A stretch of 37,879 bases of DNA from Myxococcota bacterium (GTDB lineage: Bacteria; Myxococcota_A; UBA796; CAJQPC01). Positions 6,249 through 35,652 of the stretch are shown one piece after another (position 1 is the stretch's first letter; every line of letters starts with the position of its first letter). The notes below the pieces were generated by a model. It was not told the origin of the DNA and made no database searches. It was given only the letters and a program-made list of their open reading frames with translations. The translations under genes and the position numbers were made by a program. The stretch covers positions 1 to 37,879 of the forward strand of contig JAKLKD010000034.1 in assembly GCA_023150845.1 (NCBI GenBank), read 5' to 3'.

Positions 6249-7345
6249 AGCCAGTCCAGGTCGTAGGGCGCGAGCTCGAAGGTGATCGGCGCGTCGGCGT
6301 TCTTGAGGGCGCAGGCGGCGAGGTCCACGACGTAGATCCCCGGCTTGTCGTTCTCAGGGTCCGCCCAGCCCCAGCGCGCGATGACCCAGGCCTCGCCCCG
6401 GTCGTTCGCCTCGGCCTTGGGCAGGTACTCCGAGAAGCTCGCTAGCTCGGTGAGCGCCCCCGTCGCCAGGTCGGCGCAGGTCATCGTGTAGCTGGAGTAG
6501 TCCTCGGAGGGCGCGAGGATCAGGGCGTCTGTGCCCGAGGCCGCCACGTCGCTGATCGCGCCGCTGAGGCGGTCGCCGTCGATGAGCTTCGTGAGCTCGT
6601 CCTCGTCGGGATCGAGCGACCACACCCCGGCCCCGGCGCCGTCGAGGGCCTCGGCGGAGATGAGCAGGCCCGCGCCGTCCCAGGCGTGGAGCTGGGTGTT
6701 CCCGCCCACGGCCCAGCGCCCGGTCACCGTCTCCGCCGCGCAGTCCACCTCCACCACGGCCCCGCCGACGCTCGCCCAGTCGTTCGCCTGATCGAGGCCG
6801 TTGAGCGCGACGTAGAGCGAGTCACCCCGCACGATCATCTCCGTGGCCTCGGGCTCCGGGCCGCCCTGGAGCACGGCGCCGCTGAGGTCCACCTCACTCA
6901 CGAGGTCCCCCGTCGCCGGGTCGAGCACCGCCAAGGCGTCGTCGTTGTACAGGCTCACGAAGAGCTTCCCGGCGCAGGTCACCGCGTCGTAGGGGTTCGT
7001 GCGGTCCCCGGTGCTGCGCTCCCAGACCGGCGCGGCCCACTCGCCGGGGGTGTAACGCCGCACGTTGTCGTATCCGTAGCGGTTGATCTGGTAGATCACG
7101 CCCTCATCGACGCTCAGCGCCGCGTCGCCGGTCGTCAAGAACAGGCTGTCGTTCACCGTCCAGTCCTCCAGGGACACCGATCCGAAGCTGCCCGTGGCGT
7201 AGTCCTGGGCGACGGTGGTGACGAGCGCCATGGGGCCGTCGGCGGCGGGGCTCGTGTCGTCGAGGGGGCCGTCGCCGCCGTCTTTGCAGGCGGTGAGGCC
7301 CAGGGCGAAGAGGGCGAGCGAGATCGTGTTGGATGTGCGGGTCAT
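6245..7345 (-). CDS. Beta-propeller lipoprotein, probable cobalamin-capture partner of BtuB
   Basis: 366 residues with a lipoprotein signal peptide (lipobox L-G-L-T-A-C). The rest shows repeated blades of the YncE/DUF5074 type: L-F-V-S-L-Y-N-D-D-A-L-A-V-L-D-P-A-T-G-D, L-Y-V-A-L-N-G, and G-V-W-S-L-D-P-D-E. The gene starts inside the last four bases of the btuB-like receptor and overlaps the small Cys-rich lipoprotein in the same way. In Bacteroidetes, the unrelated-lineage lipoprotein BtuG is a surface beta-propeller that captures B12 for BtuB. The fold, lipid anchor and position here suggest an analogous role. This is inference; no ligand residues can be identified from sequence alone. Confidence 0.8.
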   Translation of the reverse strand: MTRTSNTISLALFALGLTACKDGGDGPLDDTSPAADGPMALVTTVAQDYATGSFGSVSLEDWTVNDSLFLTTGDAALSVDEGVIYQINRYGYDNVRRYTPGEWAAPVWERSTGDRTNPYDAVTCAGKLFVSLYNDDALAVLDPATGDLVSEVDLSGAVLQGGPEPEATEMIVRGDSLYVALNGLDQANDWASVGGAVVEVDCAAETVTGRWAVGGNTQLHAWDGAGLLISAEALDGAGAGVWSLDPDEDELTKLIDGDRLSGAISDVAASGTDALILAPSEDYSSYTMTCADLATGALTELASFSEYLPKAEANDRGEAWVIARWGWADPENDKPGIYVVDLAACALKNADAPITFELAPYDLDWL

Positions 7346-9411
7346 GGCGTCTCCTCCGGGCCTTTGGGCGCCCAGCGTAAGGTGAACATGAGCGTGCGCC
7401 CGGCGAGGGGGTAGCCCACGAAGTCGGTCATCGGCGTCACCACGAGGGCGTCGTCGTGAGGGTCTGTAGGGGATCGATCGACGACCTGGGTGATCCGGTT
7501 CGTCAGATTCAGCACAGAGATCTCCGCGGAGACGCTCGGCGCGCTCAGCCGCAGGAAGGCGCCGTGAATGGACCTCGGCGCGGCCTCATAAAAGTTTGTG
7601 GCGTCCCAGTAGTTGCCGTCGACGTAGCTCCAGGTGTGCCCGATGCGCAAGGCCGGGGTGAGCTGGGCGCTCGTGGCCTGGCTCAGCTCCCAGACCGGCA
7701 CCCGGGGGAGCTGGTTCATGTAGAGCTCCGGCCGGTCGACGAGGCTCTCGGAGCGGGTCCAGGTGAGGTTCGTCTGGCTGTCGAGGCGGTCCAAGACGCT
7801 GAGCGTGAGCGCCAGCTCGGCGCCGACGGTGCGGGCCTCGCCGAGGTTGACCGGCACGGAGCTGCGCTGGGCGTTCTGCACGAGCACGATGAGGTCTTCA
7901 GCGCGGTTCACGAAGCCCGCGGCGTCGAGCCAGAGGCCGCCCCACGCTGGGCTCCACTCGACCCGGGCCCCGAGGTCGGCCTGGACGCCGCGCTCCGGGG
8001 TGAGGGCGGGGTTGCCTTGTACGGCGCCGCGCTCGCCGAAGAGCTCGGTGAAGTCCGGCGCCCGCAAGAAGCGCCCGGCGTTGGCCCGGAGCGCCAGCCA
8101 AGGCGTCGGCTGGAACGAGGCGCCGAGGCGCGGGGTGAACGCCAGGAGCAGGTGCTCCCCCTCCTCCACGAGCGGCCGCTCGGTGACCGGCGTCACGCCC
8201 AGGGCGCGGGTGTTGATGGCCTGGCCCTGGAGCACCGGGGACAGCTCCCAGACCCCGTCGCCGAGGTGCATCGGCAGGGCCAAGGCCGCGCTCCCGGCGA
8301 GGCGCCGCCGGGGGTCGTCGATGACCCCGCTCGTGAGGTTTGTCTGGGTCACGCCGTCGACCCGCCCGCTCAGGGTGAGGCTGGGGTTCAGCCATGGCGC
8401 CGGGGTCAGGGCCGCGTTGAGGAGCAGGCCCGTGGTGGAGAACACGCTCTCTTGGTAGAGCCCGCCCGTGGCGAGCTCGTCGTCGCGGTCGTCAAAACGC
8501 TCGACGCGGTCGGTGCGGAACAGCCGGGCCTGGCCGACGGCGTCCTCACCGCAGCGCTCGGCCTCCAGCACGCCGACGTGGCGGGTGGTGTTGAGGTGCG
8601 CGCGCAGCGCCGGGCTCTCGACGGCGCCGGGCAGGCCCTCGCCGCGCTGCAGGAGGCTCGACACGAGGGTCACCCGGCCCGCGGCGCCGATGTAGCGGGC
8701 GCGGGCGTGGGTCATCACCTGGGCCTTCTGGTTGTTCACCCGGGGGCCAAGGCGGTCGTCGAGGTTGTTGTAGGGCGTGGCGTTGTCGGAGAAGGCGTCG
8801 AAGTCGCCTTGGGTGCTGAGGCCTTCAGCGATGAGCCACAGCTCGGTGCGACCGCCCCAGCGCGCGGCGCTCGCCCCGCCTGAAGCGCCGCCCTGGAAGG
8901 TGCCGTAGCTGGCGACGGAGGCGCGGGCCCGGGGTGTGGGCGCGCCGGGCTGGCTCACGAGGTTGATCACCCCGCCCATCGGCGCGGCGGCGAAGGACGG
9001 CGGGGCGTTGCCGCGGTAGACCTCGACCCGGGAGAAGGCCTGGAGCGGCAGCTCGGAGAGGTTGACGACGGCGCTGCCGTCGGGGTTGAGCGGCACGCCG
9101 TCGAGGTAGACCTGCACCTGGCGTAAGCTCGACCCGCGGATGCTCACGGCGCTGAGGTCCCCCAGGCCGCCGAGCTGCACGACGGTGGTGCCCGTGGCGG
9201 TCTCGATGACGTCGGCGAGGTCGGCGGCGGCGGAGAGGCGCTCGTCGATCGGGATGATCGTGACGCTCGTGGGGTCGTCGATGGCGCGCACCCCGGGGCC
9301 CTGGGCCTCGACGGTGATCTCGGCGCCCGCCCCCTCCGCCGGATCGGCAGAGCGCGGCTCCTCCTCCTGGGCGAAGGCGGCGGTCAGCGTGAGCAGGGCG
9401 TAGAGGGTCAT
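7342..9411 (-). CDS. btuB: TonB-dependent outer-membrane receptor, probable vitamin B12 receptor BtuB
   Basis: 689 residues: signal peptide (about 1-14, ending A-F-A), a possible TonB box (E-I-T-V-E-A), a plug domain with L-A-D-V-I-E, V-S-I-R-G-S-S-L-R-Q-V-Q-V-Y-L-D-G-V-P-L-N, R-V-E-V-Y-R-G and M-G-G-V-I-N-L-V, then a 22-strand-type barrel ending L-M-F-T-L-R-W. The motifs are general to TonB receptors, and the substrate is assigned from the cobalamin riboswitch in the leader (9500-9680). AGGA lies just before the ATG. It is the first gene of a three-gene operon with four-base overlaps. No BtuCDF ABC transporter is in the window, so periplasm-to-cytoplasm transport must be encoded elsewhere. 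Confidence 0.9.
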   Translation of the reverse strand: MTLYALLTLTAAFAQEEEPRSADPAEGAGAEITVEAQGPGVRAIDDPTSVTIIPIDERLSAAADLADVIETATGTTVVQLGGLGDLSAVSIRGSSLRQVQVYLDGVPLNPDGSAVVNLSELPLQAFSRVEVYRGNAPPSFAAAPMGGVINLVSQPGAPTPRARASVASYGTFQGGASGGASAARWGGRTELWLIAEGLSTQGDFDAFSDNATPYNNLDDRLGPRVNNQKAQVMTHARARYIGAAGRVTLVSSLLQRGEGLPGAVESPALRAHLNTTRHVGVLEAERCGEDAVGQARLFRTDRVERFDDRDDELATGGLYQESVFSTTGLLLNAALTPAPWLNPSLTLSGRVDGVTQTNLTSGVIDDPRRRLAGSAALALPMHLGDGVWELSPVLQGQAINTRALGVTPVTERPLVEEGEHLLLAFTPRLGASFQPTPWLALRANAGRFLRAPDFTELFGERGAVQGNPALTPERGVQADLGARVEWSPAWGGLWLDAAGFVNRAEDLIVLVQNAQRSSVPVNLGEARTVGAELALTLSVLDRLDSQTNLTWTRSESLVDRPELYMNQLPRVPVWELSQATSAQLTPALRIGHTWSYVDGNYWDATNFYEAAPRSIHGAFLRLSAPSVSAEISVLNLTNRITQVVDRSPTDPHDDALVVTPMTDFVGYPLAGRTLMFTLRWAPKGPEETP

Positions 9412-9499
9412 GGGTCCTCCGCGCTCCAGGCAGCGCCGAGCGCCCGCGATGGCGGAGGGGCCCGGCCCTCCATCCCCGGAGAGCGGTCATTTCGTCACG

Positions 9500-9680
9500 A
9501 TGAGGCCGGTCTCCTGGCTCCCAGGTCAAGCCGTCGCCCCGCGCCTTCCCACGCTTGACGCGCAGTGGCTTGTGCGGAGGACGTCCCTGGTCACAGTGGC
9601 GGGGGCCGCGTCGGATTTGGCCCAAGGGCCTCACCGACTTCCCGTTTCACCCCACGGCGTCGCCGTGAGGCACCTCATGC
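9500..9680 (-). ncRNA. Cobalamin riboswitch (RF00174 class) in the btuB leader
   Basis: Read on the minus strand, the leader contains the conserved series of a B12 riboswitch: GAGGTGCC near the 5' end, GGGTGAAACGGGAAGTCGGTG-like core split over 9625-9660, CGCCACTGTGACC, GCCACTGCGCG, GGGAAGGCGCGGGGCGACGG, and the 3' B12 box AGCCAGGAGACCGGCCT (9503-9519 on the + strand). Spacing and order match the class. About 88 bases separate it from the btuB start; that part can form a GGAGGG/CCCTCC hairpin but lacks a T run, so control is more likely at translation initiation. Binding of adenosylcobalamin or a related form should lower expression. Confidence 0.95.
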
Positions 9681-9704
9681 GGTTGGGTTGTCAGAGAGCG
9701 CCCC

Positions 9705-14823: not shown

Positions 14824-16509
14824 ATGAATGTGAGGCCCGAGAACCCTGTCATTGTGCAGGGCGACGGAAAAGTCCTCGTCGAGACCTCCCACCGACGGCA
14901 CGCCGAGGCGCGTGACTTTCTGTCGCGTTTCGCGGAGCTGGAGCAGAGCCCGGAGCATCTGCACACCTACCGCATCTCGCCGCTGTCGCTGTGGAACGCC
15001 GCGGCCGCTGGGGTCTCCCAGGCTGAGCTGGTGAAGGGCCTCAAGGACCTCTCCAAGTTCGACATCCCCAAGAACGTGCTCGACTCCATCCACGAGACGA
15101 TGGAGCGTTACGGCCTCGTCAAGCTCGTCCCGCACCCCGACCGTAAGGACCTGCTGCGCCTGGAGTTCGCCACGGCCTTCATCGCCAAGGTCGTCTCGGC
15201 CCTGCCCGCGGCCAAAGAGATGATGGTGGCCGACGGGCGCCGCTGGTGGGCCATCCAGGCCGGCCACCGCGGCCTCTTTAAGCAGCGCATGTTGACCGCG
15301 GGCTGGCCCATCGAGGACCTCGCGGGCTTCTCCCCCGGCGCCCACCTCGACATCAAGCTCCGCCAGACGACCAAGCTCGCCCAGAAGCCCTTCGTCGTCC
15401 GCGACTACCAGACCGAGGCCGCCAAGCGCTGGTTCATGGACGGCAAGCCCGCGGGCGGCCACGGCGTCATCGTGCTGCCCTGCGGCGCGGGCAAGACCAT
15501 CGTCGCGCTCAAGACGATGAGCCTCGTGAACACCCACACCCTCATCCTCGCCACGAACGCCGCGGCGGTGGACCAGTGGGTGCGGGAGATCCTCGACAAG
15601 ACCCACCTCACGCCCGACCAGGTCGGCGCGTACATGGGCGAGCGCAAAGAGATCCGCCCGGTCACCGTCGCCACCTACCAGATCCTCACCTGGCGGCGGA
15701 ACAAGGGCGACGAGTTTGAGCACCTGCACCTGTTCTCCGACCGCGACTGGGGTCTCATCATCTACGACGAGGTCCACCTGTTGCCGGCGCCGGTCTTCGG
15801 GGCCACGGCCGACCTGCAGGGCCGCCGCCGCATGGGCCTCACGGCCACCTTGGTGCGTGAGGACGGCCGCGAGGGCGACGTGTTCTCCCTGGTGGGCCCC
15901 AAACGGTACGACCTGCCCTGGCAGCTCCTAGAGAAGCAGGGCTTCATCGCTGAGGCGAAGTGTTACGAGGTCCGGGTGCCCTTCGCGCACGGGCTCCTCG
16001 ACCGCTACGAGCGCAGCGACGAGGCCGGGAAGTTTAAGATCGCCTCGGTGAACCCCGCGAAGATGACGGTGATGCGGCGGCTCATCGACAAACACAAGGA
16101 CGACAACGTCCTGGTGATCGGCACCTACATCGACCAGCTTGAGGACATCGCCGCGACCTTCCGCGCGCCCCTCATCACCGGCAAGACCCCCCACGCCCGC
16201 CGGGAGGAGCTGTTCGACAAGTTCCGCAAGGGCCAGATCAAGCTCTTGATCGTGAGTAAGGTCGCGAACTTCTCCATCGACCTCCCCGACGCCAACGTCG
16301 CGATTCAGGTCTCGGGCACCTTCGGCTCGCGCCAAGAGGAGGCCCAGCGCCTCGGGCGAATCCTGCGCCCCAGCGCCAAGAACGACGGCGCCTTCTTCTA
16401 CACCGTGGTCACCCGGGACACGAAGGAGCAGGACTTCGCCATGAAGCGCCAGCTCTTCTTGACCGAGCAGGGCTACCGGTACTTCATCCAAGAGCAGGCG
16501 GCGTCATGA
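14824..16509 (+). CDS. Bacterial XPB-type DNA helicase (SF2)
   Basis: 561 residues from ATG 14824 (an upstream GTG at 14770 is less likely). XPB unwinds DNA 3'-5' and is the bacterial relative of the TFIIH/nucleotide excision repair helicase. An N-terminal domain (about 45-105) with L-H-T-Y-R-I-S-P-L-S-L-W-N-A is typical of bacterial XPB. Then Q motif region V-V-R-D-Y-Q, Walker A L-P-C-G-A-G-K-T (218-225), DEVH box (315-318), G-L-T-A-T, and the XPB-specific R-E-D motif (345-347). Motif VI is Q-R-L-G-R-I-L-R-P. It is first in an operon with a Helicase_C_3 protein and xseB. A repair role is inferred from family. Confidence 0.93.
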   Translation: MNVRPENPVIVQGDGKVLVETSHRRHAEARDFLSRFAELEQSPEHLHTYRISPLSLWNAAAAGVSQAELVKGLKDLSKFDIPKNVLDSIHETMERYGLVKLVPHPDRKDLLRLEFATAFIAKVVSALPAAKEMMVADGRRWWAIQAGHRGLFKQRMLTAGWPIEDLAGFSPGAHLDIKLRQTTKLAQKPFVVRDYQTEAAKRWFMDGKPAGGHGVIVLPCGAGKTIVALKTMSLVNTHTLILATNAAAVDQWVREILDKTHLTPDQVGAYMGERKEIRPVTVATYQILTWRRNKGDEFEHLHLFSDRDWGLIIYDEVHLLPAPVFGATADLQGRRRMGLTATLVREDGREGDVFSLVGPKRYDLPWQLLEKQGFIAEAKCYEVRVPFAHGLLDRYERSDEAGKFKIASVNPAKMTVMRRLIDKHKDDNVLVIGTYIDQLEDIAATFRAPLITGKTPHARREELFDKFRKGQIKLLIVSKVANFSIDLPDANVAIQVSGTFGSRQEEAQRLGRILRPSAKNDGAFFYTVVTRDTKEQDFAMKRQLFLTEQGYRYFIQEQAAS

Positions 16510-29129: not shown

Positions 29130-30383
29130 CTACTCCACCCCCTCCCAAGCCTCCCGCAGCGTCTCGCTCGCCGTCTCAATCCACTCGGTGACCTCGGCGC
29201 GCCCCGTCGTGATGGCCTCCGGGTCACAGGCCCGCGGGTCGGCGTAGACCGCCTCCTCGGTCAGCAGCGCGGCCTGGGCCATCGTCTCGGCGAGGGTGGA
29301 GGCGTCAACGGCGTCGGCGAGGTCACGCGCGGCGTTCGCCCAGTCCCGCTCACAGTCGGGGTCGAGGCGGCAGAGGGCGGCGAGGTTGCCCCGGGGCTCC
29401 TTGAGCGCGTCGGCGCTCTGGGCGTCGGGGAAGAGGATGCCGTCAAGGTCCCACGATCCAAAGCGCATCGGGCCGCCATCGGGGGGGAACCACACACGGT
29501 AGTTGTTCACGATGACGCCGTAGCCGTCGAGGTTGCCGAGCCACTGGTCCGCGGCGAGCTGGCGCTGCAGCCCCGCGAAGTCTACGGCCTCGGCCAAGGA
29601 GTCCGTCACGCGCCCGGCCTCAAAGGAGTCCAAGGTGGCGTTTGAGACGGCGGCGATGTCGGCGTGGCCTACGTCAAAGCCCTCTTGCAGCTCAAACCGC
29701 TCGTCGCGGCCCTCGCCGAAGTCGTTGAACCGGGGCCACCACACGGCGTAGGAGTAGCTGCCCTCGTAGAGGTTGCCCTCGTCGGTGCCAAACACCCGGC
29801 GCATCCAGCGGTCGTCTTGGGCCTCCATGGTGATGTAGAGGCCATAATCTTCACCGTTGATGAAGAGCTGGGCGAAGCCCGCCCGGCTCGCGGGCACGTC
29901 GGCCAGGGCCATGAGCTGCGCGCCGAGGACCTCCTTGAGCTTGCTGGGGTCGATGCTGCCGCTCGCCAAGGCGAGGCGCTCCAGGCCGAAGGGCCGCTGG
30001 TCACTGTACTCGTTGAGATCGAGGTTAAACTTGGGCTTGTCCTCAAACCGCTGGAACGAGCCCAGGCGACCGCGCAGGCGCACGCCGATGGTGCCCACGT
30101 TGACGCCGTCGAGGGTGAGCTGGCCGGGCACCTCAAACCGATCCTCGTGGATCGTGCGCTCTTTGGACAAGGTGCGCACGGCCTCGTCGCTCAGGGTGAG
30201 CTCGATGCGGTTGATGCGCTCCACGGAGAACAGCCAGTCGTTGTTCTCGTCGTCGTCGTCACCGTGGTCGGCGGGCGGGCTCGTGAAGTCGCCGCCTTCG
30301 CCGCAGACCTCCTCCTTGCAGCCGCCGAGGAGCGCGGCGCTCAGCAGGCCGAGCCAGATCGGCGTCAAACGTCGGTTCTTCAT
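29130..30383 (-). CDS. CotH-kinase-family lipoprotein
   Basis: 417 residues with lipobox L-L-G-G-C and an acidic spacer. The core matches CotH: K-P-K-F-N-L-D-L-N-E-Y, L-A-L-A-S-G-S-I-D-P-S-K-L-K-E-V-L-G, A-D-V-P-A-S-R-A, F-I-N-G-E-D-Y-G-L-Y-I-T-M-E-A-Q-D-D, and late N-N-Y-R-V and S-W-D-L-D-G. CotH proteins are atypical kinases; the Bacillus member phosphorylates spore coat proteins. The E-A-Q and W-D-L-D segments correspond to the nucleotide and metal site. Here the protein is probably periplasmic or surface-exposed. It overlaps the upstream small barrel gene by four bases, so they form an operon. Confidence 0.87.
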   Translation of the reverse strand: MKNRRLTPIWLGLLSAALLGGCKEEVCGEGGDFTSPPADHGDDDDENNDWLFSVERINRIELTLSDEAVRTLSKERTIHEDRFEVPGQLTLDGVNVGTIGVRLRGRLGSFQRFEDKPKFNLDLNEYSDQRPFGLERLALASGSIDPSKLKEVLGAQLMALADVPASRAGFAQLFINGEDYGLYITMEAQDDRWMRRVFGTDEGNLYEGSYSYAVWWPRFNDFGEGRDERFELQEGFDVGHADIAAVSNATLDSFEAGRVTDSLAEAVDFAGLQRQLAADQWLGNLDGYGVIVNNYRVWFPPDGGPMRFGSWDLDGILFPDAQSADALKEPRGNLAALCRLDPDCERDWANAARDLADAVDASTLAETMAQAALLTEEAVYADPRACDPEAITTGRAEVTEWIETASETLREAWEGVE

Positions 30384-30955: not shown

Positions 30956-32077
30956 TCATGCCGTCGTGGCCGGGAGGAGCGCGGCTCGGAGGATCGCCGT
31001 GTGGGCGTCGGCGACGGTGAGCCCGCGCTCGGCCGCGTGACGGCGCAGCGCGTCGCGGAGCGAGGCCTCCAAGCCCGAGACCGCGGCGGGCTCCCGAGGC
31101 GGGTTCACCCAGACGCCGCGCTGATGCCAGTCGGCCGGGAAGGCCATCCGCTTGAGCTGGTCGGGGGTGCGCTCCGCGACCAGCGCGACGAGCCGCGCCC
31201 GCCAGGTGCTCTTGGGGTTGAGGTGGTTGAGGATATACGCGAGGACGACGAGGTAGTTGTAGAGGTGTTTGTCGGGGGCGGTGACGAGCTCGCCGCTCGG
31301 CGAGCGTGTGGTGAAGGTGACAAGATCATCGCGGAGCTGATTGAGGGTCGGGAGCCCCTTCGCGTGAAGACGATCCCAGCATCTGTTGTGATGTGCACAC
31401 ACGTTTCGTATTGATGAGAGCGCCTCGACAACGCGGTGGGCGACCTGCTGATTCGGTAGCCCAAGGGCTTCTGAGACTGCTCGTTTTACATTCAAGCTGG
31501 CTGTGTGCTCAAGCCACCGCGAGAGCTCTCCGAAAGACAGGGTCTCTACAAGGGCCCAAACGGGCGGAAAGCGCGGTGAATCGTAGGTGCCACGGTAATG
31601 CACAGCGAATGACTCTTGTGAGTCGTTTAGCTTTCTGGCTCCGTTGGACATCAGGCTGAGGGCATCGACGCTTCCATCTGTCCGTTTAGGGTCAAGCCAG
31701 GCATGTGCGTTTGGGTGCACGCCTCGCTGCTCGTCCGCCTCCCGCGCCAAGGAGTTCGCCCATGCGCTCCTCAGGGTGACCTCGACACGTTCAATGGCCT
31801 CCATGATGAGCAAGCGGAGCTTGCGGTCGAAGACGTAGAGGTCGAGGACCTGGTCGAACGTGGTCCCGGGCAGGATGGCGTGGTCACGAGCCCCACTCTC
31901 TTGAGTCCCCCTCTCAAAGGCTGCGAGGTAACCGCTGAGCCGAAAGTACCCGATCTGACGCAGATATCGAAGCGCGCGCGCTTCATCATCGATTTGGAGA
32001 CCACGAGCACGCAGCAGCGCGATATGCTCAGCGTCCGTCTTGACGGTCTTCGGGTAAGAGATCTTTACCTTCGACAT
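30956..32077 (-). CDS. Abi_2 (AbiD/AbiF-like) HEPN protein, probable RNase toxin of an RNA-antitoxin system
   Basis: 373 residues from ATG 32077; longer in-frame readings run into the hairpin RNA and are rejected. Family features: Y-P-K-T-V-K-T-D-A-E-H-I-A-L-L-R-x-R-G-L at the start, Y-L-R-Q-I-G-Y-F-R-L-S-G-Y (38-50), F-D-Q-V-L-D-L-Y-V-F-D-R-K-L-R, I-E-R-V-E-V-T-L-R, and the HEPN nuclease motif R224-N-V-C-A-H229. Abi_2 proteins give abortive infection against phage. Related AbiF proteins are RNases held by a cognate upstream RNA and are considered relatives of Cas13 ancestors. Here a promoter and a 65-base hairpin lie directly upstream. The gene is less GC-rich than its surroundings. Roughly 80 C-terminal residues look like an extra helical extension. 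Confidence 0.9.
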   Translation of the reverse strand: MSKVKISYPKTVKTDAEHIALLRARGLQIDDEARALRYLRQIGYFRLSGYLAAFERGTQESGARDHAILPGTTFDQVLDLYVFDRKLRLLIMEAIERVEVTLRSAWANSLAREADEQRGVHPNAHAWLDPKRTDGSVDALSLMSNGARKLNDSQESFAVHYRGTYDSPRFPPVWALVETLSFGELSRWLEHTASLNVKRAVSEALGLPNQQVAHRVVEALSSIRNVCAHHNRCWDRLHAKGLPTLNQLRDDLVTFTTRSPSGELVTAPDKHLYNYLVVLAYILNHLNPKSTWRARLVALVAERTPDQLKRMAFPADWHQRGVWVNPPREPAAVSGLEASLRDALRRHAAERGLTVADAHTAILRAALLPATTA

Positions 32078-32112
32078 GCCATTTCCCCGCGCGCGAAGCC
32101 CAGAAACAAGAA

Positions 32113-32183
32113 ACCTCCCCTTTAGACCTTCCGCTCTGCGCTCCGTAAGGAGCGAAGAACGACGAGGTAGGGGAGGTGTTGTC
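32113..32183 (-). ncRNA. abiF-type hairpin RNA upstream of the Abi gene (candidate RNA antitoxin)
   Basis: On the minus strand ACCTCCCCT (32177-32169) pairs perfectly with AGGGGAGGT (32121-32113). Inside, ACCT pairs with AGGT, GTTCT with AGAGC (one G-U pair), and CGCTCC with GGAGCG around the loop TTAC (apex at 32145-32148). Together they make one long imperfect hairpin of 65 bases. A perfect -35 and a -10 lie so that the RNA would begin near 32183, about six bases before the stem. The Abi ATG follows 35 bases after the stem. A conserved 'abiF RNA' motif is known upstream of Abi_2 genes; match to it is inferred, not tested. Confidence 0.75.
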
Positions 32184-32189
32184 TCGCCT

Positions 32190-32218
32190 CGTTTATCTGG
32201 TGGCCCCGACGGTGTCAA
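32190..32218 (-). promoter_or_regulatory. Promoter of the Abi hairpin RNA
   Basis: On the minus strand TTGACA (32218-32213, perfect -35), a 17-base spacer and TAAACG (32195-32190; GATAAA at shorter spacing also possible). It points into the hairpin at 32177-32113 and would also supply the Abi mRNA. Confidence 0.65.
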
Positions 32219-32229
32219 GCAGAAGTCTA

Positions 32230-32240
32230 TCCCGCCGGGA
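32230..32240. promoter_or_regulatory. Short palindrome upstream of the Abi-RNA promoter
   Basis: TCCCG-C-CGGGA, perfect 5-1-5 symmetry, lies 12 bases upstream of the -35 box of the hairpin RNA. It is a possible operator; short GC-rich palindromes also arise by chance. Confidence 0.25.
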
Positions 32241-32451
32241 CAAGGCCCCCGAGATTAGGATCCACCCCCTCTAAAACCTCCACTCCCTGGCCCGGAGGGC
32301 GATGAGCGCAGGGAGGCGAGAGGCGTCGTCGCTCTGCGACTTCGCCGCTTCATCGAGTCCCGTCAAGCATCGCCCGCTCCCATCCCTCAATCTTGGTCAC
32401 CCACCCAATCTTCGCCCAGGGCTCCCCCTGTGCGATCCCCCACACCAACTC

Positions 32452-32481
32452 CTGACAAACCGCCTCGAGCGGTGCTATCCT
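32452..32481 (+). promoter_or_regulatory. Promoter of the first radical SAM gene
   Basis: CTGACA (32452-32457), an 18-base spacer and TATCCT (32476-32481). Transcription would start near 32488, giving a leader of about 44 bases with a purine-rich ribosome binding region before ATG 32532. The stretch 32241-32451 between this promoter and the Abi-RNA promoter holds nothing I can identify. Confidence 0.6.
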
Positions 32482-32531
32482 GTGGAGGTCCGACCCCCTC
32501 GCCGACCTCCAGGAAGGAAGCGGAGCCCCCC

Positions 32532-33941
32532 ATGCGCGTGATGCTGATCCGTCCCCCCGCCAAGCACACCGTCGAGAGCGAGGTGCCCGCCGCGGTTGAG
32601 GCCGAGAACCTGTCGTATCCGCCTTTGGCGATCCTCGCGCTGGCGACGTACTTGAAGGCCCACACCCACCACGAGGTGTGCATCCTCGACGCCCAGCTCG
32701 ACAACCTCGACTACGAGACCTTGGAGGCCAAGGTCAAGGAGTGGGCGCCGGAGGTGGTCGGGATCACGGTGTTCACCGTCGGCCTCGTGGACTGCCTGCG
32801 CACCGTCGCGACCGCCCGCCGCTGCCCCTCGGTCAAGCACATCGTGCTCGGCGGGCCCCACATCAACGACTTCCCCAAGGAGTCCGTGGGCCTGGCCGGC
32901 GTTGACGCGGTCGTGAAGGGTGAGGGCCAGAAGCCCCTGCAGCTCTTGCTGGACGCCTGGGAGAAGGGCCTCACGCCCCGGGGCATCCCCGGCGTCGTCG
33001 CCCACCCCGACGACCCCGTGCCCACCGAGGACGTCTACTTCTCGAACAACCTCGACGACTACCCGCCGCTCGACCTGGACCTCATCGAGTACAACCGCTA
33101 CTACGACGTCATGGGCGAGGGCGGCATCTTCACCACGATGGTCACCAGCCGCGGCTGCCCCTACCGCTGCACCTTCTGCAACACGCCGCGCCACCGCTAC
33201 CGCGTGGCCACGCCGGGCCGGGTCTGCGACGAGATCGAGGGCTTCTTGGCGAAGGGGATCAAGGAGATCTACTTCGTCGATGACACCTTCAACATCACGA
33301 ACAAGCGTGTGCATGAGCTCTGCGACGAGATCCTGCGCCGCGGCCTCAAGTTCACCTGGACGGTGCGCTTCCGCGTGAAGGGCGTCGATCGCCCGCTGTT
33401 GGAGAAGATGAAGGCCGCGGGCTGCCACCGCATCCAGTTCGGCGTCGAGCAGGGCACTGAAGAGGGGCTCTTGCGGCTCAAGAAGGACGTGTCCTCGGCC
33501 GAGATCGAGCACGCCTTCGCGCTCTGCCGGGAGGTCGGCGTGCGCACCGTGGCCTACTTCATGATCGGCACGCCCACCGAGCGCAGCCGCCAGGACGTGG
33601 TGGACACCATCAACTACTCCATCCGCCTGAACCCCGACTTCGTGATGTACAACATCCTCACGCCCTTCCCGGGCACGACGATCTACGACGAGGGGATGCG
33701 CGACGGGGTCCTCGACATCCAGCCCTGGCTCGACTTCATGCGCCAACCGCACGAGGACTTCAAGGCCCAGGTCTGGGACGAACACTTCACCCGGGATGAG
33801 CTGCGGGACATGCTGCACATGGCCTACCGCCGCTTCTACTGGCGTCCCCGCTTCGTCGCCCGAAACCTCGCGCAGATCCGCAACCCACGGGATCTTCTGC
33901 GCAAAGCGACGGCGGGTATCCGCCTGCTCACCGCTGACTAG
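32532..33941 (+). CDS. B12-binding-type radical SAM protein 1
   Basis: 469 residues from ATG 32532 (GGAG at 32522-32525). The N-terminal about 150 residues have the Rossmann-like fold of cobalamin-binding radical SAM enzymes (M-R-V-M-L-I-R-P-P start, V-V-G-I-T-V-F-T, H-I-V-L-G-G-P-H), without the D-x-H-x-x-G motif, as is usual for this class. The radical SAM core has C209-P-Y-R-C213-T-F-C216 for the 4Fe-4S cluster, then F-V-D-D-T-F-N and Y-F-M-I-G-T-P. The C-terminus is a short helical extension ending near R-R-F-Y-W-R-P-R-F. It is an orphan member: such proteins modify lipids, hopanoids, antibiotics or peptides, often by methylation, and the substrate is unknown. Confidence 0.9.
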   Translation: MRVMLIRPPAKHTVESEVPAAVEAENLSYPPLAILALATYLKAHTHHEVCILDAQLDNLDYETLEAKVKEWAPEVVGITVFTVGLVDCLRTVATARRCPSVKHIVLGGPHINDFPKESVGLAGVDAVVKGEGQKPLQLLLDAWEKGLTPRGIPGVVAHPDDPVPTEDVYFSNNLDDYPPLDLDLIEYNRYYDVMGEGGIFTTMVTSRGCPYRCTFCNTPRHRYRVATPGRVCDEIEGFLAKGIKEIYFVDDTFNITNKRVHELCDEILRRGLKFTWTVRFRVKGVDRPLLEKMKAAGCHRIQFGVEQGTEEGLLRLKKDVSSAEIEHAFALCREVGVRTVAYFMIGTPTERSRQDVVDTINYSIRLNPDFVMYNILTPFPGTTIYDEGMRDGVLDIQPWLDFMRQPHEDFKAQVWDEHFTRDELRDMLHMAYRRFYWRPRFVARNLAQIRNPRDLLRKATAGIRLLTAD

Positions 33942-34045: not shown

Positions 34046-34111
34046 ATGAACCCTTCGCCCTCGCACCGCACCCCCCTCGCGCCCCACGCGCACGCAATGG
34101 AGACGGCATGA
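34046..34111 (+). CDS. Possible 21-codon leader peptide overlapping the radical SAM start
   Basis: ATG 34046 lies seven bases after the -10 box, so it could be read from a leaderless message. The frame encodes M-N-P-S-P-S-H-R-T-P-L-A-P-H-A-H-A-M-E-T-A and its TGA (34109-34111) overlaps the ATG of the radical SAM gene (34108) as ATGA. Translation could couple to the main gene. Peptides this short arise by chance, so this is only a candidate. Confidence 0.3.
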   Translation: MNPSPSHRTPLAPHAHAMETA

Positions 34112-35652
34112 AGCTCACCCGCTGCCTGATGATCGGCCTCTACGGCATCGAGAACAGCGGCGTCCGTCACCTCACCTCGATGCTCAAGCAGCGAGGGGGG
34201 TACCGCGCCGACCTGATGTTCTTCAAGGACTGGCGGCACAACCGCGTGGAGTGGCCGACGGAGGACGAGTACGGCCTGCTCGTCGACCTCATCGAGCGGG
34301 AGGGTTACCACCTCGTCGGCTTGAGCTTCGGCTCGCCGTACTACCGCGTGGCGATCGAGGTCACCAAACGCATCAAGGAGCGCCTGGGCGACAAGGTGCT
34401 GGTCATCTGGGGCGGCCTGCACCCCACGCTCACCCCGGAGCACTGCATCCAGCACACGGACATCGTCTGTGTGGGTGAGGGTGAGTACCCGCTCTTGGAC
34501 CTCGTCGGGCGCCTGGAGGACGGCCGCTCGATCAACGACGTGCCGAACATGTGGATCCGTGAGTCCAACGGCACGATCCACCGGAACCCCGTGAAGGAGC
34601 TCGTCACGAGCCTCGACGACCTCACCTTCCGTGAGTTCGGCGGCGACGACAAGTTCTTGATCGACAACAACCTCCTCACCCGCGGCGATCCCCTCGTTCA
34701 TCACCGCGAGTACCGCATCTTCGCCAGCCGCGGCTGCCCCTACAAGTGCGCCTACTGCTACAACAGCTCTCTGCGCGCCATCTTCCCCGAGGGCAAGGGC
34801 AACTACCACCGACGCCGCAGCGTCGACAACGTCATGGCTGAGCTTCGCCTGGCCCGGCAAAAAATGCCGAACATGGCCTGGGTCAAGTTTGACGACGACA
34901 CCTTCGTCTTCCCCAAGAAGTGGCTGCAAGAGTTCGCCGAGAAGTACAAGGCCGAGTTCGGTGACCTGCCCTGGGACTGTATGATGACCCCGGACGTCGC
35001 CCGCATCGAGAACCTGCGCCTGCTCAAGGACGCCGGGCTCCGCGGCGTACAGATGGGCATCGAGGCGGGCTCGGACCGTGAGCAGAAGGAGGTCTACGAC
35101 CGCACCTCCACCGTCGCGCAGATCCTCGCGTTTGACGAGATGAACCTGGAGCTGGGCCTCGACGTCAAGTACGACGTCATCATCGACAACCCCCTGGCCT
35201 ACACCTCGGACAAAGACGCGCTCTTCCAGCTCCTCATGGACCTGAAGTCGCCGTACAAGATCTATCTGTACTCGCTCACGCTCTACCCCAAGAGCTCGGT
35301 GACCGAGAAGATGTTGACGGCGGGATACGCCACAGAGTCCGACGTCGAGGGCTTCGCCACGAAGTCGTTCCGGCAGTTCCGCGTGAGCGTGGACTGGCAG
35401 CGCAGCAACGAGGACAAGTTCTACCTCGCTCTGTATATGTTGGTGAACAAGCAGTTCATCTCCCGCGACTTCATCTGGAAGATCTACAAGTCCGACTTCT
35501 GGCGTAAACACCCCGACCTGCTCCTGGAGTTTGCCCAGGGCGCCAACCTCGTGCGCATGACGGGCATCGCCGCCGAGATGGCCTTCCGCGGGGAGCTCTC
35601 CCTGCAGAAGGTGCGTGAGTACGGCAACATTCGGAAGATGATCAACCAGTAG
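34108..35652 (+). CDS. B12-binding-type radical SAM protein 2
   Basis: 514 residues from ATG 34108, GGAG at 34099-34102. The N-terminal domain (about 1-160) is the cobalamin-binding-like Rossmann fold with V-G-L-S-F-G-S-P and V-I-W-G-G-L-H-P-T-L-T-P-E, then G-E-G-E-Y-P. The radical SAM core has C210-P-Y-K-C214-A-Y-C217-Y-N, later V-K-F-D-D-D-T-F-V-F and G-V-Q-M-G-I-E-A-G-S. The C-terminal 130 residues form a family-specific helical domain. It is only distantly related to the upstream radical SAM protein and has its own promoter. The substrate is unknown. The 3' end overlaps the convergent ATPase gene by 11 bases. Confidence 0.9.
   Translation: MKLTRCLMIGLYGIENSGVRHLTSMLKQRGGYRADLMFFKDWRHNRVEWPTEDEYGLLVDLIEREGYHLVGLSFGSPYYRVAIEVTKRIKERLGDKVLVIWGGLHPTLTPEHCIQHTDIVCVGEGEYPLLDLVGRLEDGRSINDVPNMWIRESNGTIHRNPVKELVTSLDDLTFREFGGDDKFLIDNNLLTRGDPLVHHREYRIFASRGCPYKCAYCYNSSLRAIFPEGKGNYHRRRSVDNVMAELRLARQKMPNMAWVKFDDDTFVFPKKWLQEFAEKYKAEFGDLPWDCMMTPDVARIENLRLLKDAGLRGVQMGIEAGSDREQKEVYDRTSTVAQILAFDEMNLELGLDVKYDVIIDNPLAYTSDKDALFQLLMDLKSPYKIYLYSLTLYPKSSVTEKMLTAGYATESDVEGFATKSFRQFRVSVDWQRSNEDKFYLALYMLVNKQFISRDFIWKIYKSDFWRKHPDLLLEFAQGANLVRMTGIAAEMAFRGELSLQKVREYGNIRKMINQ

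Follow-up and report, generated by a model that had tools for sequence, protein, structure and literature searches.

A long-armed abiF-type hairpin RNA, probably an RNA antitoxin, upstream of an AbiF-family HEPN gene in a Myxococcota genome

The abi locus and its HEPN protein

The analyzed window, i.e., the whole 37,879-nucleotide stretch of Myxococcota DNA, carries on its minus strand an Abi_2/AbiF-family gene preceded by a structured leader region, with the following features (listed with their supporting evidence).

30956..32077 (-): Abi_2/AbiF-family HEPN protein, 373 aa (Pfam, PADLOC, PDB sequence, Foldseek, start codon and motif)
32084..32088 (-): GGGGA, the likely abi ribosome-binding site (read from the sequence)
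32103..32112 (-): U-rich tract TTCTTGTTTC directly 3' of the stem, 7/10 T, probable weak terminator/attenuator tail (4-9/10 T at the same place in 34 homologues)
32113..32177 (-): abiF-type RNA hairpin (fold z -6.6; compensatory changes in four copies; first-ranked match of model R1 across the window)
32113..32121 (-): outer stem, 3' arm AGGGGAGGT (sequence and fold)
32122..32125 (-): 0x4 bulge CTAA where outer stem meets inner helix, 3'-sided like that of the homologues (fold and homologue alignment)
32169..32177 (-): outer stem, 5' arm ACCTCCCCT (sequence and fold)
32190..32195 (-): -10-like hexamer TAAACG (17-nt spacer from the -35; 12 nt ahead of the hairpin)
32213..32218 (-): -35 hexamer TTGACA (promoter score)
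32320..32367 (-): probably what is left, after decay, of another promoter-hairpin unit (roughly one repeat period farther upstream; match to sister unit 2)

The encoded protein (ATG start at 32077) matches Pfam Abi_2 (PF07751) at 2e-44 (152.5 bits vs. a cut-off of 25.6) and PADLOC AbiD at 6e-52, and an NCBIfam search with the same protein returned no match. It contains one HEPN motif, RNVCAH at residues 224-229, in agreement with the R-N/H/D-xxx-H pattern, and R224, N225 and H229 are invariant across 28 sequences. The only solved relative detected by sequence (E up to 0.1) is PDB 8vz6, an Abi family protein (7e-40; profile 6e-91), and the same entry, described as 'PbAbiF dimer bound to ncRNA', is the only Foldseek match under 0.001 (E 4.9e-17, TM 0.87 on target) for an AlphaFold2 model with a mean pLDDT of 86. 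In the Abi_2 tree the protein occupies a long branch, its placement without resolution, outside a supported clade of eight. The surrounding genes include a CotH kinase-like protein downstream of abi (29130-30383, -) and two adjacent B12-binding radical SAM proteins (32430-33941 and 34108-35652, both +), the first of which diverges from the abi operon and neighbors abi in a sister genome too. A Cobalamin riboswitch (RF00174, 119 bits) lies at 9487-9692 (-), immediately ahead of an open frame on the same strand (7342-9411).

Fold, promoter and U-rich tract of the leader

The hairpin is a real structured RNA, far more stable than expected by chance. Its minimum free energy of -40.8 kcal/mol compares with -20.6 +/- 3.1 kcal/mol for shuffled sequences (z -6.6), with 0 of 200 shuffles equally stable; a comparison with shuffles is what the initial annotation had proposed as a check on its minus-strand fold of 32113-32183, and that fold is present with small corrections only. 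The paired part comprises 65 nt (32113-32177), preceded by an unpaired 5' sequence (32178-32183). As originally described, it includes a 9-bp outer stem (ACCUCCCCU/AGGGGAGGU), a 4-bp inner helix (ACCU/AGGU) with a 0x4 bulge (CUAA), and a 6-bp apical stem (CGCUCC/GGAGCG) with a UUAC loop above a 1x1 internal loop. The corrections concern the middle stem, in which the five pairs previously noted (GTTCT/AGAGC) stand as the inner part of a 7-bp helix (UCGUUCU/AGAGCGG), and the loop separating it from the inner helix, which is 2x1 (CG x A) rather than 4x3.

The promoter-like site TTGACA-17-TAAACG ends 12 nt before the hairpin, bearing out the precise promoter spacing noted earlier: all but one of the 34 homologues have a corresponding gap of 10-15 nt, and the sister genome likewise has 12 nt (measured from the best sigma-70-like site). 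Its -10 is weak, the score of the whole site being reached by 1.4% of control 60-nt stretches, and a simple scan applying stricter -10 rules missed it; across the set, 33/36 sigma-70-like sites exceed the 95% control level (2040 control stretches). On the other side, the hairpin ends 35 nt upstream of the Abi_2 ATG, on the same strand. The initial observation that no T run follows the stem proved wrong, as the next 10 nt (TTCTTGTTTC) contain seven T residues, in an interrupted tract at the position where homologues often have an unbroken T run. A simple terminator scan of the window did not list the stem with this tract. Because a U-rich tract comes after the outer stem here and in the homologues, the stem and its tail probably also attenuate transcription, and thus the earlier choice between a protein-binding RNA and a terminator was a false one: the protein-binding part is supported, by inference, from comparative layout and homologues, while the denial of a terminator does not survive the U-rich tract.

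Homologous hairpins and the standing of the window RNA

A scan of GTDB contigs yielded nine relatives, and Pfam Abi_2 is present in 18 of 377 Myxococcota genomes and in 39 of 299 genomes from the phylum of a Pasteurellaceae genome (G378). Upstream regions were inspected at 60 loci (the window, the sister locus entered twice as L002 and L027, and 57 others), and homologous hairpins, picked by a descriptor plus eye, were clear at 37, of which 34 were aligned, a duplicate and two hairpins of dissimilar interior having been removed. The descriptor failed or chose another hairpin in 20/60 loci, several of them later recovered by the covariance model described below. In Pseudomonadota, Nitrospinota and other Myxococcota, too, Abi_2 genes were found preceded by this layout of promoter, hairpin and U-tract, and in other phyla it was recovered at most of the Abi_2 genes inspected. 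All 34 hairpins have in common an outer stem of 7 bp starting A-C-C, an inner helix of 3 bp, a bulge confined to the 3' side, and a variable apical stem followed by T-rich sequence; RNAalifold unaided also returned the outer stem and the 3-bp inner helix with its 3' bulge. With an imposed structure, which was derived from the same sequences and therefore favors its own scores, 92% of cells are paired, 11 of 14 pairs show two-sided change, and the covariation score is 0.427 vs. 0.136 for shuffled alignments, all slid versions being far lower. The inner helix (helix 2) is 97% paired, and compensatory changes extend into it in about 33 of 34 rows. Long apical arms are found in otherwise canonical RNAs as well (L033, 74 nt, and L079, 88 nt).

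A covariance model (R1) of these 34 hairpins, built with the window and sister sequences excluded, ranked the window hairpin first on both strands of all 37,879 bases (18 bits, E 0.0042; runner-up 12.1 bits, E 0.3), at a score well below the 42-65 bits of compact relatives. The window hairpin has the family architecture of outer stem, short inner helix, 3'-only bulge and apical stem, and the canonical GCCUCU ... AUGCGCA signature is only partly present, the window having ACCUCG ... AAGGUCU. At the sister locus, copies 3 and 1 of a repeated hairpin are the top two matches and copy 2 is not found. Applied to 57 Abi_2 loci (56 others and the sister), R1 gave a match upstream of the gene at E up to 0.05 in 44, including the 34 training loci; one of the ten remaining positives (L052) is identical to a training sequence. 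Of 22 loci outside the training set, 9 have a match at E up to 0.05 on the correct strand. Locus L063 carries two R1 matches (1068-1120 and 1311-1375), 243 nt apart, before one Abi_2 gene, a further case of tandem organization. The 13 loci without an R1 match (L007, L010, L016, L017, L019, L028, L049, L061, L064, L065, L067, L068 and L072) include two that end at contig edges (L028 and L067) and eight that form one well supported protein clade; since 13/57 loci are negative and a supported clade of eight is among them, part of the Abi_2 family, judged from these sequences, appears to be without an R1-type RNA or to have a different one. In a clade of Abi_2 proteins that have no R1-type RNA upstream (L010, L017, L019, L049, L061 and L064), most members have KPW[KR]S near the N terminus, and perhaps this clade uses a different antitoxin.

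The abiF motif reportedly originates from Weinberg et al. 2017. The corresponding Rfam family, RF03085 (gathering threshold 37 bits), gave no match at gathering across the window and none on 31900-32500 even at E up to 10. A snoRNA hit, the sole Rfam match to that region under the same E limit, was taken as chance. Below gathering, RF03085 does match the RNAs of L003 and L004. Because RF03085 fails to recognize it, we classify the window RNA, on sequence comparison, as a divergent, long-armed abiF variant missed by that model; further AbiF covariance models exist according to the Evo paper (PMC12804078), and these may already cover it. A model of the subtype itself (R2) gave strong matches only in the window and sister genomes, 2 of 377 Myxococcota genomes, and weak matches in four others (G032, G319, G271 and G007). 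Those in G032 and G319 (L107 and L110) overlap long coding frames that belong to a single gene and were dismissed as chance, and the one in G007 is far from the Abi_2 gene of that genome. As a pattern, the subtype occurs once in the 7.1-Mb genome of the window, three times in the sister genome and not at all in 37 other relatives. The window genome also holds a second AbiF system (G000:C152, about 15731-16493, -; loci L011 and L025), in which another Abi_2 gene is accompanied by a canonical-looking abiF RNA (RF03085, 30.5 bits, below gathering) and a separate terminator hairpin, so that one genome contains two RNA/toxin pairs that differ from each other.

In the sister genome, three promoter-hairpin copies, 148 and 146 nt apart, precede the abi gene; the window keeps a single intact unit plus the remnant. 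Identity among the window hairpin and the three sister copies is 94% in the outer 5' arm, 100% in the 5' part of the core and 96% in its 3' part, vs. 46% in the apical arm. With the 26-pair structure imposed on the four copies, 92% of cells are paired and six pairs have changed on both sides; the shuffled mean is 1.9 and 0 of 500 shuffles reach six, in a set of only four related copies. The substituted pairs include G-U besides Watson-Crick. Sister copy 2 looks decayed: two mismatches interrupt its outer stem, and its fold is at chance level (z -1.2). The remnant in the window matches sister unit 2 at 75% over 48 nt (36/48; score 24 vs. a best of 14 in 300 shuffles), and no significant fold is left in 32320-32367. 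That the apical arm derives from a phage spacer-like sequence was considered and set aside, an exact 19-nt scan of viral contigs with one of the four arms having given no match.

Proposed function, alternatives and relation to known systems

Taken together, these observations make it very probable that the hairpin is the noncoding RNA of an AbiF-type RNA toxin-antitoxin system, which would bind and silence the HEPN RNase AbiF. According to PMC12373285, the C. difficile RNA RCd22, located upstream of abiF, neutralizes AbiF in cis and in trans by direct binding, stem-breaking changes abolishing neutralization and compensating changes restoring it; for PbAbiF, a review (PMC12737573) describes a structure with one ncRNA per monomer, in which two bulge nucleotides inhibit the RNase. 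The window RNA, given its layout and homology, should act like these RNAs, and toxin binding, toxicity and inhibition at the window locus are what we infer from them. The sigma-70-like promoter would produce a structured RNA of about 65 nt starting about 12 nt after the -10. By analogy with its relatives, this RNA would be made in excess as a short transcript, with transcription often stopping at the outer stem and U-tract, and would bind the AbiF dimer via outer stem, inner helix and 3' bulge, keeping the RNase inactive, while occasional read-through would yield AbiF mRNA. Were the RNA lost or displaced, e.g., upon phage infection, AbiF would be set free for RNA cleavage and growth arrest. 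The long apical arm would represent a lineage-specific extension of the hairpin, changeable in sequence as long as pairing is kept.

An explanation in which the hairpin acts only in cis, as an attenuator or intrinsic terminator of the abi leader without protein binding, accommodates the G+C-rich outer stem, the 7/10 T that follow it and the unbroken T run often seen there in homologues. A terminator, however, needs no conserved inner helix, 3' bulge or near-invariant core (100% and 96% vs. 46% in the arm), the compensatory changes extend into the inner helix (97% paired), and the best relative of the protein (8vz6) was solved with such an RNA bound, making this explanation unlikely. It is hardly plausible that a DNA element (an operator, a mobile-element end or a repetitive palindrome) merely folds as RNA by accident: despite a strong inverted repeat close to the promoter, the hairpin is single-copy in a 7.1-Mb genome and sits after the -10, not before or over it, its loops and bulge are asymmetric with the side kept, and pair changes to G-U besides Watson-Crick suit an RNA.

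The missing Rfam match, the low R1 score, the confinement to one genus and the long branch of the protein might point to an unrelated protein-binding RNA that arose independently before the AbiF gene and replaced a canonical abiF RNA. Such an origin is nevertheless very improbable, given that the hairpin shares with the homologues its strand, promoter spacing, ACC.. start of the stem, bulge on the 3' side, U-tract and spacing from the gene, and that clear family members (L033 and L079) are long-armed too.

With the hairpin regarded as an AbiF antitoxin RNA, its arms invite a further speculation to which we give little credence, namely, that the core (outer stem, inner helix and bulge) is an AbiF-binding handle and the apical arm a swappable sensor. 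If true, tandem units with rewritten paired arms would let several triggers release one AbiF toxin, and such an RNA would be an intermediate between one lone antitoxin RNA and a guide array. More generally, the presented analysis would add a long-armed RNA subtype missed by Rfam to the AbiF RNA-antitoxin systems, from which Cas13 reportedly descends, with a sister genome in which the antitoxin gene apparently multiplies as whole promoter-RNA units, the core fixed and the arms changing. These RNAs provide a natural variant set for asking which part binds the toxin and whether the arm acts, and the R1 family model shows how many of them the current Rfam model scores below threshold.

A comparison with known systems places the window RNA closest to abiF RNA (RF03085) and RCd22, which likewise are small structured RNAs upstream of and on the same strand as an Abi_2/AbiF gene, with a promoter in front, a terminator-like element behind and a stem-loop with a side bulge; the initial annotation had drawn no link to these known AbiF systems. 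It differs from them in length (65 nt with a long two-part apical arm vs. 33-37 nt), in carrying the U-tract on the hairpin itself rather than on a separate one, and in the sister repeats, which are whole promoter-hairpin units 147 nt apart, whereas RCd22 holds its two abiF motifs within one short RNA (PMC12373285). The window protein, compared as a protein alone, is a clear relative of PbAbiF (PDB 8vz6; AbiFr) by sequence and fold, with the HEPN motif present, 29% identity and a C-terminal extension of about 50 residues past the aligned part. Type III toxin-antitoxin systems (ToxIN, CptIN, TenpIN; AbiQ) likewise place an RNA gene ahead of a toxin gene, and PMC12373285 describes an attenuator between their antitoxin and toxin genes; unlike these, the window toxin is a HEPN RNase rather than a protein of ToxN-like fold, and its RNA is without short tandem repeats inside one transcript. 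Relative to CRISPR-Cas13, whose HEPN domains are reported in PMC12737573 as descendants of AbiF and which combines two HEPN motifs with a repeat-spacer array, the window has a single HEPN motif, no Cas13-sized protein and no repeat-spacer array, its subtype hairpin being present as a single copy genome-wide.
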